Source: a virus. Taken from it: a stretch of 56,244 bases of DNA. Positions 1 through 56,244 of this stretch are shown here, piece after piece. The stretch covers positions 1 to 56,244 of IMG/VR virus record IMGVR_UViG_3300030419_002488. The stretch is one strand, 5' to 3'. Every line of letters starts with the position of its first letter. Positions within the stretch are counted from its first letter, which is position 1. A model generated the notes under the pieces. The model did not search any database and was not told the origin of the DNA. It saw nothing but the letters and a program-made list of their open reading frames with translations. The translations under genes and the position numbers were made by a program.

Positions 1-98
1 CTTGTTGATATGGGATTTAATATGGGTGTGCCAAGATTAATGAAATTTGTTAATATGTGGAAAGCTATAGATAACGCTGATTTTCAATGGGCAAGCGA
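1..98. repeat. Left terminal direct repeat, exact part
   Basis: These 98 bases are identical to 55757-55854 at the other end of the window. Homology continues with scattered differences to 186, and again from about 187 to 239 against 56190-56244. The sequence is therefore one circular or terminally redundant genome whose ends overlap. The two overlaps are not the same allele, because the right copy carries an extra gene (55939-56175) that is absent here. Confidence 0.95.
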
Positions 99-189
99 AG
101 AGATGCTTGATTCTCGTTGGGCAAAACAAGTAAAGGGGAGAGCAACCCATTTATCTGAAGTTATGAAAACGGGAGAATGGGGTGAATAA
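1..189 (+). CDS. Lysozyme (GH24, T4-type), C-terminal fragment
   Basis: This is the C-terminal 62 codons of the endolysin that is complete at the other end of the window (55457-55942). The frame is open from base 1 and the protein ends in GEWGE, against GEWA in the full copy. The catalytic N-terminal half is missing only because the window starts inside the gene. Nearly all differences from the other copy are third-position or near the 3' end, so this is a second natural variant and not a pseudogene. Its last 8 bases overlap the start of the cysteine-rich gene that follows. Confidence 0.9.
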   Translation, partial: LVDMGFNMGVPRLMKFVNMWKAIDNADFQWASEEMLDSRWAKQVKGRATHLSEVMKTGEWGE

Positions 190-307
190 AAAACGATGTG
201 ACACTTGCGAATGTTACGAATGTAACTGTGACGAGTGTGAATGTGATTGCCACCACAATGATAGAGTTTCTACTGATCTTCATGATCGACAACCAGATAG
301 TGAATAA
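182..307 (+). CDS. Small cysteine-rich protein, metallothionein-like
   Basis: A 41-aa protein with eight cysteines in residues 6-23, arranged as C-x2-C-x-C repeated three times and closed by C-x-C-H-H. The core reads CDTCECYECNCDECECDC. This density and spacing is what metal-thiolate cluster proteins use, so binding of Zn, Cu or Cd is a reasonable inference. The tail after residue 25 is acidic and polar. The start is GTG, overlapping the lysozyme stop. The right-end copy begins with ATG at 56184 and has the same cysteine core but a different N-terminus (MDKKKR against VNKKR), which indicates that the protein is under selection. I do not recognise a named family. Confidence 0.72.
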   Translation: MNKKRCDTCECYECNCDECECDCHHNDRVSTDLHDRQPDSE

Positions 308-434
308 GACACAAAGATTTCAAGATATAGACAGGTGTCTGTATTTTGCAGAACGTTTAACCAAACAACCAACAATACCTTCTGAGGAAGGAGGTAAGCG
401 AATAACAGCATATTGCAAACCAGTAAACAAGTAA
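258..434 (+). CDS. Small conserved phage protein, unknown
   Basis: A 58-aa protein starting MIEFLLIF, with a short hydrophobic N-terminal strand, then a polar segment with CLYFAERL, and ending ITAYCKPV. This pattern recalls a small protein frequent in marine phage genomes whose role is unknown. The ATG at 258 is preferred. The frame is open further upstream from a GTG at 198, but that part is only the shifted reading of the cysteine-rich gene. It overlaps that gene by 50 bases and is followed 9 bases later by the next gene. Confidence 0.6.
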   Translation: MIEFLLIFMIDNQIVNKTQRFQDIDRCLYFAERLTKQPTIPSEEGGKRITAYCKPVNK

Positions 435-443
435 GGGGAATAC

Positions 444-887
444 ATGTTAGCAGAACTTGCAGCGGCAAATGCCGCCTTCGGGGTCATAAAAAGTTTTATT
501 TCTAACGGAAAAGAATTAGCAAGTTGTGGTAAACAAATTTCTGATTTCGTTTTTGCAAAAGAACAAATACAAAAAAAAGCAAACAAGAAAAGAGCAAAAG
601 GCGTAAGTGGGGGAGATTTAGAAGAGTTTATGGCTTTAGAAAAAATAAAGCAACAAGAAGATGAACTTAAACAAATTATGATTTATGCAGGGCGACCCGG
701 ACTTTGGCAAGATTGGCAAAGATTTCAAGCGGAAGCACGTAAATCACGAAGATACGCAGAAAAAATGGCTCAAAAACAAAGAGAAGAATTATTACAAATT
801 ATAGCGTGGAGTATTGGAGTTATAATATTTGTTGGTTTAACTGTTGCATTAGTGTATGGGGCTGCTAAATGGCAGGGAAAAATATAA
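444..887 (+). CDS. Membrane-anchored coiled-coil protein, unknown
   Basis: A 147-aa protein. It has a short Ala-rich N-terminus, a long charged helical region (about residues 30-120, rich in K, E and Q) and one hydrophobic segment near the C-terminus (about 121-143, IIAWSIGVIIFVGLTVALVY). A Shine-Dalgarno GGGGA lies 6 bases before the ATG. Proteins of this shape occur next to tail and lysis genes of marine podoviruses, and a lysis accessory or spanin-like role is possible. No lipobox or catalytic motif is visible, so the function is left open. Confidence 0.7.
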   Translation: MLAELAAANAAFGVIKSFISNGKELASCGKQISDFVFAKEQIQKKANKKRAKGVSGGDLEEFMALEKIKQQEDELKQIMIYAGRPGLWQDWQRFQAEARKSRRYAEKMAQKQREELLQIIAWSIGVIIFVGLTVALVYGAAKWQGKI

Positions 888-28184: not shown

Positions 28185-29708
28185 CTACGAATTAACTTCT
28201 AATAAGTCAAGCCAATTCTTACCTATTTTTAATTCTATACCAACTGGCATATCATACTCAACTCCATACCTGCGTTTTGTCTCCGTTGGTAAACATAGCA
28301 TAGAGTCTTTAAGTATCTGAATACATTGATCTTTTTCGTCTGGGTGAACATCAATCACAATAGAATCGTGAACGGTATTACAAATTTTTGATTTCATATT
28401 TCTCATTGCCTTGTCCAACTTAACTAATGCAATGGGTAATAAATCAGCAGTTGCAAAACCTTGAACAGGATAGTTACAAATGGCAGTTCTGTTCGTTGCT
28501 GAACCCCACTCTGTCCATCTAGCATCTGGGAAAGAATACTCTCTTCCTGATGGTAATTTAACTACTTTATTTGTTACTGCTTGTTTCTCAAGTTCTTTGT
28601 GCCAATCCGTCACTTTCTCATACTTTTCTTTAAATCTTTGGTAGTATTGTTGTTGACTTCGTGTGCCACTAACACCCCCATACAAAGGTTTAAACGTGTG
28701 TGCTTTTGCTTCTTGTCGGCTACATCCTATAACAGACGCAGTATAGCTATGAACGTCTGTGCCTTCAAGAACATCTTTATAAACTTGTGGGTCTTTAGAT
28801 AAGAACCCCGCTACCCTAAATTCTAATTGAGAATAATCCCCCTCAAGTATAAAACCCCCATCAAATCTACTTTCTACAACTTTTCGTATAGCAAATGTTG
28901 AACCTCGTGGCATATTCTGAAAGTTTGGGTTGCGACTAGATAGACGACCAGTTGCCGTTACACATTGCATAAACTCTGGGTGAATAAAACCATCGTCATC
29001 AACGTTGTTCTTCATCCCCTCTACAAAAGTTGATAGATATGTTCGCAACGCATTGTATCGTGAATACGCCGAACAAAACTCACGAGCATCCCCTTCTAAC
29101 TCGGGCAGTCTATCCTCAAGAGTTGTCTTATCTGTTTTGAATCCTGCTGATGCCGTATCTCGCACCGTTCGAGGTATTATCTTAAACCCTGCAACTTCTC
29201 CTGTTGAAGTGTAAACTACACCCTTACCTAAACAGGTTTTACAAACACGCTTTGCTTTCCCCATAGAACCATCTTTTCTTTTTAAAGTAATTCTACCTGT
29301 TCCAAAACATTCCTTACATTGATTCCCAATTGTTTTGTAAACTATATCAGTCATGTTGCGAACATGTCTTACAAAATCTGTGTGTTTCATACGGGTTCTC
29401 ATCTTTGGTTTTATTGTGTTGCCCCTCATCTCATGACCAAGATTAAATGTAATTGACCAAAGATTTTTATCTTTTACTTTCCTTGAATACAAAAGAACAC
29501 TCTTGTCGTCAGGACTGGCAAGATTAATAGGAGTATCCCCCATAGCTTTCTTTGCCAGTTCACTTAACTTCTTTTCCAACGAAAGCATTTCTGTTTCGTA
29601 TTCTTTTTCTATCTGATCTAAAGTATTCAAGTTTATTTTTAATCCGTTTGTTTCTACCCTAGATAGTGTGTTTACCATCTCAAATGATAGTTTAAGTGTC
29701 TCTTTCAT
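28185..29708 (-). CDS. polA: DNA polymerase family A, with DnaJ-like zinc finger insert
   Basis: A 507-aa protein. Motif A contains D291 (LEGDYSQLEFRV). Motif B has R331, K335, F339 and Y343 (RQEAKAHTFKPLYGG). Motif C is VHDSIVI (H447, D448). Residues 131-166 hold two DnaJ-type CxxCxGxG units, C131-K-E-C134-F-G-T-G and C156-K-T-C159-L-G-K-G, inserted before the palm. Such a DnaJ-like domain is known, from memory, in the polymerase of phage HMO-2011. The ATG has GGGGA six bases upstream, so it is preferred over a TTG four codons before. The exonuclease domain is a separate upstream gene, overlapping by 17 bases in another frame. Confidence 0.93.
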   Translation of the reverse strand: MKETLKLSFEMVNTLSRVETNGLKINLNTLDQIEKEYETEMLSLEKKLSELAKKAMGDTPINLASPDDKSVLLYSRKVKDKNLWSITFNLGHEMRGNTIKPKMRTRMKHTDFVRHVRNMTDIVYKTIGNQCKECFGTGRITLKRKDGSMGKAKRVCKTCLGKGVVYTSTGEVAGFKIIPRTVRDTASAGFKTDKTTLEDRLPELEGDAREFCSAYSRYNALRTYLSTFVEGMKNNVDDDGFIHPEFMQCVTATGRLSSRNPNFQNMPRGSTFAIRKVVESRFDGGFILEGDYSQLEFRVAGFLSKDPQVYKDVLEGTDVHSYTASVIGCSRQEAKAHTFKPLYGGVSGTRSQQQYYQRFKEKYEKVTDWHKELEKQAVTNKVVKLPSGREYSFPDARWTEWGSATNRTAICNYPVQGFATADLLPIALVKLDKAMRNMKSKICNTVHDSIVIDVHPDEKDQCIQILKDSMLCLPTETKRRYGVEYDMPVGIELKIGKNWLDLLEVNS

Positions 29709-30255
29709 ATAAATCCCCAAATGTTAAGCCAAAAGCTTCTAATTGTTTTAATGCAACTTGTTCTGTTGCAATTACATCTGCTTTACCATATTCCTCTACT
29801 ATTTCTGATGGAATTTCGTAAAACGTTTTTCCTTCTTTAAGATACGGCGAAACCAAGTCCGTCTCCTTTTGGGTAACGTTATAGCGTTTTGCAAGAGAAG
29901 CAAGTGCCAAAGACCAACGCCTTCCTTTCGCCCTAATATATTCCGCAACCATCGTATCATAAATTTCTCCCTTATATTCAAACCCACACGCACGCAACCA
30001 AGTCAAATCAAATTTTATATTTTGTCCGACAAGAACATCAGCCTTGTCCAGATCATCTTGTATTAGTTTTGCCGTATTTGAATCGTAGTTGTATTCACTA
30101 TCCTTGTGATAAAAAAATTTGTAATTAACTTCTTTGTTTAAGAGCCACTTCCAACCTATTGATACCAAACGATTATTAAAGTAAGGCAACGCAGTAGTTC
30201 CGCCCGATACTTTATCTCTGTGAGTTGTCTCAACGTCTAGTGTTAGGATATTCAT
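29692..30255 (-). CDS. 3'-5' proofreading exonuclease (DnaQ-like), split from PolA
   Basis: A 187-aa protein with the DEDDy set: D7-x-E9 (LTLDVETTHRD), N-x3-F-D (GQNIKFDLTWL) and Y-x3-D (EYGKADVIATEQ). It corresponds to the N-terminal proofreading domain of family A polymerases. Its last codons (FGLTFGDLYERDT) are where a fused polymerase would continue, so the two proteins probably act together. The polymerase gene restarts in the +1 frame with its own ribosome binding site. Confidence 0.88.
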   Translation of the reverse strand: MNILTLDVETTHRDKVSGGTTALPYFNNRLVSIGWKWLLNKEVNYKFFYHKDSEYNYDSNTAKLIQDDLDKADVLVGQNIKFDLTWLRACGFEYKGEIYDTMVAEYIRAKGRRWSLALASLAKRYNVTQKETDLVSPYLKEGKTFYEIPSEIVEEYGKADVIATEQVALKQLEAFGLTFGDLYERDT

Positions 30256-34198: not shown

Positions 34199-34383
34199 TG
34201 GATATGAACGAATTTTCAAGGCAATTACAACACAATGTTATCAAACCATTTAAAGATGGTGTAGAAGATGGATTGTTACATGGGGAACGAGATGAAAGGC
34301 AAGGTAGTCATTACTACAAACAAGGTTATGACTATGGTATTTATCTACATGGTGAACTTAAAATAGAGGAGAATAGTGAATGA
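34198..34383 (+). CDS. Small protein upstream of the methyltransferase
   Basis: A 61-aa protein with FSRQLQHNVIKPFKDGVEDG and YYKQGYDYGIYLHGEL. The alternating aromatic and glycine residues suggest a small compact domain. It is coupled by TAATG upstream and ATGA to the methyltransferase, so it may be an accessory of it. No family recognised. Confidence 0.58.
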   Translation: MDMNEFSRQLQHNVIKPFKDGVEDGLLHGERDERQGSHYYKQGYDYGIYLHGELKIEENSE

Positions 34384-35522
34384 ATTGGTTAAATTTATGT
34401 AGTGGTGGTGAGATAGGTCGCCAAGCAGTAAAAGAGTTAGGACTACCAGTAGATAACTGGTTTAGTTCAGAAGTAGATAAGTTTGCTATCAAGGTAGCTA
34501 AAGATAATCATAAAGATGTAATTCACATAGGTGACATTTGTAATGCACTTCACAATACACGAACATTAAAGATAGATGTTATGCTTTGTGGTTCACCCTG
34601 TCAGGGTTTTTCAGTTGCGGGTAAAGGGTTGAACTTTGAACACCCGCAATCAAAATTATTTTTTGAATTTGTCAAGATATACAAATACCATTATGAACGC
34701 TTCCCCCAAATGAAGTTATTATTTGAAAATGTAAGAATGAAAAAAGAGTGGCAAGATATTATTGTCAACACATTACAAGAGATTAACCCAAACTTAAAAT
34801 TACACATTATTAATTCATCTATCGTGTCAGCACAGAATAGGGTGCGAATGTATATCACGGATTTTGATTTTAAGATACCTGAAGATAGAGGTATTAAACT
34901 TAAAGATATAGTTGAGTGTGGTTGTGTAGATAGGGAGAAGTCTTATTGTTTAGATGCTAACTATTGGAAAGGTGGTAATTTAAAGTCTTATTTTGAAAAG
35001 TCACGCAGACAATTAGTGTTCGGAGATGGTTGCAAACAAGTTGGAATTGCTGATCTAAATGGACATGATATACTCAAGCGTGTCTATTCAGTTGAAGGAA
35101 AGTCACCAACATTAAATACTTGTGGTGGTGGTAATCGTGAACCAAAGATACTTTGTAAATCAGCGTCAATTACTGGTCGTAGACTAGACAAACAAGGCAT
35201 ACGCAAAGATAACGATTTGTCAATTCCAATAACACAAACATTAGAAGTTTCAAACAAAGATAAATCTCGTTGTCTATCTACAATAACCAAAGATGCAGTT
35301 GTTTCACCACTACCAGTTGGTCGTTATCCAGATGCGTATGAAAATAATTCTTTACAATGGAGAAAATTGTCTGTAAAAGAATGTTGTCGGTTGCAAACAT
35401 TACCAGATGACTATTGTAAATCAGTTAGTAATAGTCAGGCATATAAGATACTTGGTAATGGTTGGACTAACGAAGTAATTAAATTTATTTTAAAAGGGGA
35501 AAATAAAAATGAAAGTAAATGA
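34380..35522 (+). CDS. DNA (cytosine-5) methyltransferase, orphan
   Basis: A 380-aa protein. Motif I is degenerate (LNLCSGGEIGRQAVKELG). Motif IV is GSPCQGFS with nucleophile C74. Motif VI is ENV (E116). Motif VIII is QNRVR (152-156). Motif IX/X lies in the C-terminus (LSVKECCRLQTLPDDY, then AYKILGNGWTNEVI). VEGKSPTLNTCGGG is part of the target recognition region. It transfers a methyl group to C5 of cytosine. No partner restriction enzyme is nearby, so protection of phage DNA or gene control is likely. Confidence 0.9.
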   Translation: MNWLNLCSGGEIGRQAVKELGLPVDNWFSSEVDKFAIKVAKDNHKDVIHIGDICNALHNTRTLKIDVMLCGSPCQGFSVAGKGLNFEHPQSKLFFEFVKIYKYHYERFPQMKLLFENVRMKKEWQDIIVNTLQEINPNLKLHIINSSIVSAQNRVRMYITDFDFKIPEDRGIKLKDIVECGCVDREKSYCLDANYWKGGNLKSYFEKSRRQLVFGDGCKQVGIADLNGHDILKRVYSVEGKSPTLNTCGGGNREPKILCKSASITGRRLDKQGIRKDNDLSIPITQTLEVSNKDKSRCLSTITKDAVVSPLPVGRYPDAYENNSLQWRKLSVKECCRLQTLPDDYCKSVSNSQAYKILGNGWTNEVIKFILKGENKNESK

Positions 35523-53314: not shown

Positions 53315-53944
53315 ATGTTATTACAGTTACTAAGTAAAGACGACGTAAAAAGATGTTTGGAACTTTGCCCAAGCATGGAAGATGGAAACAAAACACAACC
53401 CCTAAAAGGAATAAAGAAAAATTCAGAGTCAGTAAAAGTAGACGATGAAATAAGAAGTTTAATATCAGCACGAATTATACACAACCCGTTTGTTGATTCA
53501 GTTATTAACCCAACTCGTGTATCGGTTAATTTTTACAACCACTACAGAGAAGGTGATTATTACAACAAACATGTTGACAACTTTAAAGCCGAACCTAAAA
53601 TAAACCACACTTACTTTGATTACGGTTTTACAGTTTGTTTATCAAGTGATTATGAAGGTGGAGAGTTTGTACTTGACAACGAAATAGGTGAAATACCTTT
53701 TAAATTAAAAGCAGGTCAAGTTTTATTTTTTCCAATCATATACCCCCACAGCGTAAATAAAGTAACGGGGGGATTACGAAGAGCATTGATAGGGTGGTTA
53801 TCTACCAATATCAGTTACGAACAAAGTTACGTGTTGCGTAATCTTTACGAAGTAAACGCCCACGCAATTCAAAACAAACAAGATAACCTAGCTGTTAAAT
53901 CAACTATGGTTCAAAATTATCTAAAAAAATTATGGAGTAAATAA
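53315..53944 (+). CDS. 2OG-Fe(II) oxygenase (prolyl 4-hydroxylase / PKHD type)
   Basis: A 209-aa enzyme. Iron ligands H86-x-D88 (YYNKHVDNF) and H145 (FPIIYPHSVNKV), with R155 in GLRRALIGW to hold 2-oxoglutarate. SSDYEGGEFVLD between them is typical of the double-stranded beta helix of PKHD hydroxylases. The substrate is unknown: protein proline or lysine, or a base, are options. Such genes are auxiliary genes in many marine phages. AAAAGG lies before the ATG. Confidence 0.86.
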   Translation: MLLQLLSKDDVKRCLELCPSMEDGNKTQPLKGIKKNSESVKVDDEIRSLISARIIHNPFVDSVINPTRVSVNFYNHYREGDYYNKHVDNFKAEPKINHTYFDYGFTVCLSSDYEGGEFVLDNEIGEIPFKLKAGQVLFFPIIYPHSVNKVTGGLRRALIGWLSTNISYEQSYVLRNLYEVNAHAIQNKQDNLAVKSTMVQNYLKKLWSK

Positions 53945-54433: not shown

Positions 54434-54555
54434 TTACCTTTTATCTTAAACTAGCCAATTTTTTTAATCAAGTAGGTAATTACTTTTATATGAAACACGT
54501 TTACATTATCGATAGGAAAAGAGATGTTAGGAGCATTAATAGGACCAATAGCTAA
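54430..54555 (+). CDS. Very small protein before the holin
   Basis: A 41-aa protein, MITFYLKLANFFNQVGNYFY, then a basic tail (VYIIDRKRDVRSINRTNS). The N-terminal half is an aromatic amphipathic helix. The ATG overlaps the previous stop and the end overlaps the holin gene by 32 bases. Small helices of this sort are seen near lysis genes, but the call rests on overlap and continuity only. Confidence 0.48.
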   Translation: MITFYLKLANFFNQVGNYFYMKHVYIIDRKRDVRSINRTNS

Positions 54556-54916
54556 TCTAGCAGGCACTTGGTTTCAAAACAAAGTAGAAAAAACAAAAGC
54601 AGATGGACTAGCTAAAGTAGCTGAAGCCAAAGCTCGTGCTACCGTTGCAGAAAAGGTTGCTGCAGGGGAAGTAGAGTGGGAAGGCAAGATGGCACAAGCA
54701 ACAGATAATTCGTGGAAAGACGAATTTGCTTTAGTAGTTCTACTAGCTCCCGCAATTTTGGTCTTTATTCCGGGTATGACAGAATACGTAAGAAATGGTT
54801 TTGAAGTGTTAAATACGCTTCCAGAATGGTATCAGTATTTATTATTTATTGCCATATCTGCGTCTTTCGGAATTAAAGGCGTTGGTCAAGCGGCAAAGAT
54901 GCTAAAGAAGAAGTAA
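54524..54916 (+). CDS. Holin (GTA_holin_3TM-like)
   Basis: A 130-aa membrane protein. A hydrophobic start (MLGALIGPIANLAGTWF) is followed by a charged Ala-rich helix, then two membrane segments (FALVVLLAPAILVFIPGM; YQYLLFIAISASFGIKGVGQ). TLPEWYQYLLFIAISASFG is the typical end of the 3TM holins of gene transfer agents and marine phages. It would form the membrane lesion that lets the lysozyme out. The gene lies two genes before the lysozyme. Confidence 0.8.
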   Translation: MLGALIGPIANLAGTWFQNKVEKTKADGLAKVAEAKARATVAEKVAAGEVEWEGKMAQATDNSWKDEFALVVLLAPAILVFIPGMTEYVRNGFEVLNTLPEWYQYLLFIAISASFGIKGVGQAAKMLKKK

Positions 54917-55456: not shown

Positions 55457-55942
55457 ATGAAATATGACAGAGAAGAATTTGTAAAAATAGTAGCCAAACA
55501 CGAAGGAGTCGTGCTTGAACCTTATAAAGATTCATTAGGTATTTCTACTATAGGTATCGGGAGAAATCTTGAAGATCGTGGCATTACCGATGGTGAATTA
55601 ATGCACATGAACAGAGATCTCGAAGATATAGTTAATAATGGTCTTACTGAAGAAGAAGCATACTATCTCTGTATAAATGATATAAAAAATGTAGAAAAAG
55701 AGTTGGTTGCAAAAAAACCTATTGTTTTACAACTCGATGAAGCACGACAGATGTGTCTTGTTGATATGGGATTTAATATGGGTGTGCCAAGATTAATGAA
55801 ATTTGTTAATATGTGGAAAGCTATAGATAACGCTGATTTTCAATGGGCAAGCGAGGAGATGCTTGATTCCCGTTGGGCAAAACAAGTAAAGGGAAGAGCA
55901 ACACATTTATCAGAAGTTATGAGAACGGGGGAGTGGGCGTGA
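55457..55942 (+). CDS. Lysozyme (GH24, T4-type endolysin)
   Basis: A 161-aa muramidase that cuts peptidoglycan. Catalytic E16 (KHEGVVLEPYKDS), D25 and T31 have exactly the spacing of E11, D20 and T26 in T4 lysozyme. LGISTIGIGRN completes the site. DMGFNMGVPRLMKF and WAKQVKGRATHLSEVMR form the C-terminal lobe. No signal peptide is present, so export depends on the holin. The 3' third is repeated, with changes, at the start of the window. Confidence 0.93.
   Translation: MKYDREEFVKIVAKHEGVVLEPYKDSLGISTIGIGRNLEDRGITDGELMHMNRDLEDIVNNGLTEEEAYYLCINDIKNVEKELVAKKPIVLQLDEARQMCLVDMGFNMGVPRLMKFVNMWKAIDNADFQWASEEMLDSRWAKQVKGRATHLSEVMRTGEWA
55757..55854. repeat. Right terminal direct repeat, exact part
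   Basis: Identical to bases 1-98. From base 55855 on, the two copies differ, and the right one carries an inserted gene (55939-56175) before they meet again at about 56190. Confidence 0.95.
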
Positions 55943-56175
55943 GTATTCCAAAGAAAAGAACTAAAAAAAAAGATTTTTATAAAGAAGTAGAAAAATCAAT
56001 TAAAAAACGTGGTATACCTACTACACGCCAAGAAATAAAAATGTTTAAGGACAGACATAAATTTGAAGGGGTAGTTCCTAAATATCAAGAACCTAGACCA
56101 GTTGAAATACCGGGTGAACCTTCACCAAAAGCAAAAGAGCTACTCAAGCAAGGTAAAAAAGTTTATTTTTTATAG
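55939..56175 (+). CDS. Small basic protein, present in one end variant only
   Basis: A 78-aa Lys/Pro-rich protein (SIPKKRTKKKDFYKEVEKSI; TRQEIKMFKDRHKF; ending LLKQGKKVYFL). The GTG start overlaps the lysozyme stop (GTGA). The frame is open further upstream inside the lysozyme, which is not used here. In the left copy of this region the gene is missing and the cysteine-rich gene follows the lysozyme directly. No family recognised. Confidence 0.62.
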   Translation: MSIPKKRTKKKDFYKEVEKSIKKRGIPTTRQEIKMFKDRHKFEGVVPKYQEPRPVEIPGEPSPKAKELLKQGKKVYFL

Positions 56176-56183
56176 GGGAATAA

Positions 56184-56244
56184 ATGGACAAAAAGAAAAG
56201 ATGTGACACTTGCGAATGTTACGAATGTAACTGTGACGAGTGTG
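56184..56244 (+). CDS. Small cysteine-rich protein, N-terminal part (second copy)
   Basis: The first 20 codons of the same protein as 182-307, cut by the window end: MDKKKRCDTCECYECNCDEC. This copy starts at ATG with GGGGAA before it. From the second cysteine codon on it is identical in DNA to the left copy. It confirms the reading frame of the cysteine-rich gene. Confidence 0.8.
   Translation, partial: MDKKKRCDTCECYECNCDEC

Follow-up and report, generated by a model that had tools for sequence, protein, structure and literature searches.

The window analysed here, the 56,244 nucleotides of IMG/VR virus record IMGVR_UViG_3300030419_002488, carries CYS, a 41-residue cysteine-cluster peptide gene that is a real protein-coding gene under strong purifying selection. 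We put at about 55% the probability that its product is a metallothionein-like Zn/Cu thiolate-cluster peptide, serving as a Zn(II) or Cu(I) buffer late in infection; its metal binding, the identity of the metal, the stoichiometry, the timing and the benefit to the phage are what we infer. The features on which the analysis rests are as follows.

182..307, plus strand: CYS, cysteine-cluster peptide gene, 41 aa, GTG start, core C-x-T-C-E-C-Y-x-C-x-(C)-x-x-C-x-C-x-C-H
197..253, plus strand: conserved core of CYS, 19 codons, from the first Cys codon to the invariant His, pN/pS 0.07-0.09
258..434, plus strand: orf58, the downstream partner, 58 aa, start codon (ATG) within the CYS 3' end, +1 frame, beta-alpha-beta fold predicted
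444..887, plus strand: TM147, third gene of the usual cassette, coiled coil by prediction, hydrophobic segment at the C-terminus, phrog_32327 (function not known)
54524..54916, plus strand: likely holin-type membrane protein, phrog_2524 (function not known), two genes upstream of the lysozyme
55457..55942, plus strand: phage lysozyme (PF00959), upstream neighbour of CYS, its 3' part repeated at window 1-189
55939..56175, plus strand: 78-codon ORF without a family match, found only in the right-end allele, where it separates lysozyme from CYS
56185..56244, plus strand: start of a second, truncated CYS gene, ATG, AGGGGAATAA before it, encoding MDKKKRCDTCECYECNCDEC

The translation of CYS at 182-307 is M(V)NKKRCDTCECYECNCDECECDCHHNDRVSTDLHDRQPDSE; the gene begins with GTG, and its reading frame overlaps the lysozyme stop at 187-189. 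As the sequence-only reading had reported, the peptide has 41 residues and packs eight Cys into 18 of them (residues 6 to 23). It contains four CxC and three CxxC motifs, has a Cys content of 19.5%, a computed mass of 4.9 kDa and a pI of 4.6, and no membrane segment or signal was predicted in it. Low mass and high Cys content with CxC/CxxC motifs are among the marks of metallothioneins as a functional class, and CYS has these properties, conserved over 143 proteins. Frames with at least seven Cys in 18 residues arose at 0.02 per shuffled window (mononucleotide shuffles), and the window has just one other frame of this kind, a minus-strand simple repeat.

CYS was looked for in two samples of 80 IMG/VR loci, both picked without regard to cysteines, one by lysozyme similarity and the other by orf58. 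It was present, with its core intact, in 74 of the 80 loci with the most similar lysozymes and in 80/80 of those selected by orf58, and no degraded copies were seen in the sampled loci. Among the misses of the lysozyme sample, contigs L131, L153 and L199 end too early (L153 is cut within CYS); L194-L196 have no CYS gene and retain the next gene, orf58. In total, 143 distinct CYS proteins were collected. Across 43 distinct core DNA sequences, seven Cys positions use both TGT and TGC with zero amino-acid changes, and pN is very low at the non-Cys core positions too. For the same locus pairs pN/pS was 0.07-0.09 in the CYS core, 0.12-0.30 in the lysozyme and 0.20-0.25 in orf58, these being simple counts that are not tree-based, with synonymous sites saturated at larger distances. 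The sequence-only reading was to be given up if homologues were lacking, or were frameshifted with no purifying selection on the cysteines; since intact homologues are many and the cysteines are under strong purifying selection, it holds on this point.

The family core reads C-x-T-C-E-C-Y-[DE]-C-D-(C)-E-E-C-x-C-[DE]-C-H. All 143 proteins share seven invariant Cys and one invariant His; in this set the invariance holds by construction, since the extraction pattern demanded these residues as well as Thr and Tyr. The lysozyme- and orf58-selected samples, and a scan with an eight-Cys pattern specifying Cys only, show the same three non-Cys residues. The eight-Cys pattern alone was swamped by simple repeats, which disappeared once Thr, Tyr and His were added to it. 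The fifth Cys is dispensable, with Lys, Thr, Val, Ile, Ala, Pro and others in its place in 46 of 197 rows. Eight Cys are present in 149 of these rows, seven in 46 and ten in two, one of which (CCSCWCFSCSCCSCSCSC) is a repeat artefact. Independently, L192 and L213 have lost Cys5 and gained other Cys elsewhere (CC...CHCEC). When the Tyr was no longer required, a diverged 29-aa form, CEDCKCENCEC-x-ECECECH, was found in four contigs; it lacks Thr and Tyr and retains no more of the core than the acidic fillers and the spacing of Cys and His. Because it occupies the corresponding gene slot with this spacing, we regard it as probably homologous to CYS. In L513, L522, L526 and L529 the place of orf58 after the 29-aa form is taken by another small Cys protein (KPCAGCKTPTACRKANACLLG), which overlaps that form by a few bases.

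The C-H-H end that had been described holds for its first His, which follows the last Cys invariantly; the second His and the HNDRVSTDL tail are confined to one subset, where the start of orf58 overlaps the tail. The C-H-H end thus stems in part from the overlap of the two genes. Since orf58 begins within CYS in the window, with its ATG at 258, the coding sequence of this tail overlaps that of MIEFLLIFM. The conserved C-terminal tail motifs (VQGVPV, AEKGND, HNDRV..) were set aside: in the DNA most of them fall on the start of orf58 or on its ribosome-binding site, and for this reason the tails were given no weight as signs of protein function. The EEQLELDF tails (8/143 proteins) raised the thought of clamp binding and were put down to chance. 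At the other end of the gene, a longer N-terminal form is possible in L039, L084, L272 and L285 through an in-frame upstream extension, which overlaps the gene for a GQWSARKAQ-motif protein in another frame.

The thiolate-cluster reading is preferred for several reasons: the Cys/His array fits it, no metal-free fold is predicted, changes in the number of Cys are tolerated, the CxxCxCxxCxCxxCxCxC spacing resembles that of metallothionein domains, and the 29-aa form preserves just the acidic fillers and the spacing of Cys and His. AlphaFold2, given 79 aligned rows, predicted no ordered core for CYS (pLDDT 61, pTM 0.27), which is as expected for a metal-organised peptide, metals not being modelled by the program. 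CYS would then be a small cytoplasmic metal-thiolate peptide that HMO-2011-type marine phages encode in the late region of lysozyme and holin and that is synthesised in the reducing cytosol together with the translationally coupled orf58. With its seven or eight Cys and one His wrapped around some two or three Zn(II), or else several Cu(I), the peptide would buffer or hoard soft metal ions late in infection, while host proteins break down. A bolder form of this proposal, a phage-only metallothionein family coupled to orf58 that controls Zn/Cu in the dying cell or times lysis through metal, we put forward tentatively and with some doubt. CYS might also serve B12, zinc or Fe-S enzymes of the phage, as had been suggested; the phage's ribonucleotide reductase is of class II (B12), and its polymerase has an insertion of the zinc-type DnaJ kind. 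If the thiolate-cluster reading is true, metal control becomes a testable part of lytic infection in a common, almost uncultured group of ocean phages, and a metal-binding peptide family with no sequence relation to the known ones is added.

The earlier term metallothionein-like suits the Cys/His array and the flexible Cys number, a contiguous run of seven or eight Cys plus His in a 4.9-kDa cytoplasmic peptide having the look of a small metal-thiolate domain; it does not extend to a sequence relation with known metallothionein families. None of 79 members matched PF02069 (BmtA/SmtA) at E up to 10 and no member matched PF00131, with SmtA (E 4.5e-21, PF02069) and human MT2 (E 5.6e-23, PF00131) as positive controls, and a PS00203-type signature, which human MT2 fits, was found in 0/143 proteins. 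Pfam recovered neither the fungal copper metallothionein nor the mycobacterial MymT control, so that the absence of a CYS match there is uninformative. As no family model matched, CYS was not filed in any metallothionein family and is, by these models, not related by sequence to any known one. CYS is like BmtA/SmtA in being very small, CxC/CxxC-rich and cytoplasmic, with His ligands and a C-x-C-H-type end; unlike them, it has a metal-ligand region of half the length, is strongly acidic, occurs only in phages in the collections searched, and has neither a match to PF02069 nor a zinc finger fold. The GATA-type zinc finger fold of known bacterial metallothioneins (PMC10612145) is absent from CYS, whose core is a contiguous 19-residue Cys array with no helix/strand finger in the model. 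With the vertebrate metallothionein beta domain it shares the tandem C-x-C-x2-C-x-C-x2-C, a similar Cys density and about nine ligands, but there is no Pfam or PDB match, the fillers are acidic instead of basic, and Tyr and His are conserved. Strong acidity and a conserved Tyr are both unusual for animal metallothioneins. Fungal copper metallothionein and MymT are, like CYS, single short thiolate-rich peptides without a stable fold, whereas their Cys spacing differs.

The acidity, the near-constant Tyr and the lack of a bacterial-type zinc finger speak against a thiolate cluster, and the eight Cys could equally form one or two structural zinc sites. In the main rival explanation, which we consider unlikely, one or two Cys4/Cys3His sites would shape CYS as an adaptor that binds orf58 or a host protein such as RNA polymerase, a nuclease or a protease, metal storage being incidental. 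The gene neighbourhood argues for it: orf58 lies beside CYS in nearly every locus, and the two reading frames overlap or abut at junctions such as TAATG and AATGATTGA, and the CYS tail often contains AAGGAG, an arrangement that points to translational coupling. Such constant pairing suggests a specific partner and counts against general buffering, and the near-invariant Thr and Tyr within the core and the very low pN at its non-Cys positions are also in favour of an adaptor. However, the diverged subfamily has neither Thr nor Tyr and has a different small neighbour instead of orf58, L214 has no orf58 directly downstream, and the varied replacement of Cys5, with extra Cys elsewhere, would be odd for a fixed structural site. 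AlphaFold2 predicts no ordered zinc finger either, though this does not exclude one.

For orf58 itself, a beta-alpha-beta structure was predicted (pLDDT 92), with two invariant Cys. The signal-like MIEFLLIFMI... start had raised the idea of a secreted protein, which was dropped, this segment being a buried strand in the predicted structure. A fold search against the PDB gave only weak resemblances, the best at Z 5.5 (part of a topoisomerase), and also matched two uncharacterised viral proteins; T7 Gp2 (Z 3.5 and 2.9) is a very weak structural resemblance of the model, one among many, and no function was adopted from these matches. HMO-2011 gp62 is a weak relative of orf58 by tblastn.

The thiols of CYS might instead sense metal or oxidation and modulate the holin or the lysozyme, setting the time of lysis, which we judge improbable. 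CYS had been described as standing beside the lysozyme; this is so in group A (holin-like, p179, lysozyme, CYS, orf58, TM147, tail genes), and is one of several arrangements, the constant neighbour being orf58. In group B, a GQWSARKAQ-motif protein or others precede CYS, orf58 and TM147, and the holin-like protein and lysozyme follow; in L214 a three-segment holin-like protein is directly 5' of CYS. Four gene arrangements put CYS by the lysozyme or between structural genes and holin/lysozyme, and the holin-CYS order of L214 also suits a role in lysis. Against this, CYS has no membrane segment or signal, and position is its sole tie to holin and lysozyme, in a region that also encodes head and tail structural proteins. 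In group A the gene is in the late structural module, between the coat and tail-tube genes, which would agree with a virion or internal head protein whose Cys form disulfide or metal cross-links, or which carries metal into the next host; CYS has no structural-protein relatives, though, and is small and acidic with no predicted fold, and this explanation is less probable still.

The final 45 bases of the record are identical to bases 195-239, bearing out the statement that the same Cys core is present at both ends despite a different start and neighbour, and the lysozyme ends (window 1-189 and 55757-56244 being the allele-bearing stretches) are identical at 173/183 nt, with 2 amino-acid differences. 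Because of this terminal identity and the near-identical lysozyme ends, the record ends are probably two alleles of one locus, population variants brought together by an assembly join, and the genome behind the join is best read as circularly closing or permuted. That CYS is not a gene, and arises from repeats or from the constraint of an overlapping frame, is barely credible: pattern scans do yield many Cys-rich frames from low-complexity repeats, but here third codon positions are free to vary with the amino acids fixed, CYS has its own start codons, ATG included, an upstream insertion is tolerated and intact copies number in the hundreds.

Database searches with CYS against Pfam, PHROGs, NCBIfam and PDB gave no match, though 79 members were used and hits up to E 10 were admitted; isolated hits at E 0.08-5 were noise. 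In 85,000 species genomes a strict pattern had 0 matches and a loose one 103, of which some 80-100 were inspected and were low-complexity frames, none with the acidic array; a cellular origin was rejected, no homologue having been found among the matches inspected. In the cultured phages searched, CYS was not found by DNA search, by profile (eight isolate records) and by pattern (five), and a tblastn search with the peptide found nothing, BLAST masking low complexity. No paper on a phage or viral metallothionein was found in a literature search that mostly did not reach subscription journals and is therefore weak. Standard annotation and BLAST filtering miss a gene as small and as low in complexity as CYS, which illustrates how genes of this kind stay invisible.

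By its genes, the carrier phage is of the HMO-2011 type. Window 28185-29720 encodes a family A polymerase (PF00476) with a partial DnaJ CXXCXGXG insertion (PF00684, score 21, below the cut-off of 32.7), whose best relatives are HTVC033P (49%) and HMO-2011 (43%); these two are nearest for the coat, the polymerase with its DnaJ insertion and the lysozyme. Like HMO-2011-type phages (HMO-2011, HTVC033P, CRP isolates; PMC9038755), it combines a DnaJ-insertion polymerase and a class II ribonucleotide reductase with similar coat, lysozyme and terminase; unlike them, it has CYS, which is absent from all isolate records searched. HMO-2011-type phages have been described as ocean-dominant and broadly distributed, and low GC (31.9-35.4%) in this group has been linked to probable pelagiphages (PMC9038755). 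The carriers have a GC content of 33-37%, and given this link are probably pelagiphages. At 43-45% in the polymerase and 55-57% in the terminase, the phages of group B are distant relatives of HMO-2011 type. L010 lies in a 52.8-kb phage with a weak polymerase match and no recognisable terminase match, and the presence of CYS in it implies that the gene crossed phage lineages or is old.

Some further genes were observed in these phages. In two relatives, the L103/L404 style terminase matches G003 and G005 each read through one in-frame stop (TAA, TAG); the stop may be a sequencing error or an artefact of frame extension, or the gene may be interrupted. The window encodes a C-5 cytosine DNA methylase (PF00145) at 34380-35522 and, in its late region, a 2OG-Fe(II) oxygenase at 53315-53944; in pelagiphage Mosig a 2OG-Fe(II) oxygenase gene adjoins a relative of TM147.
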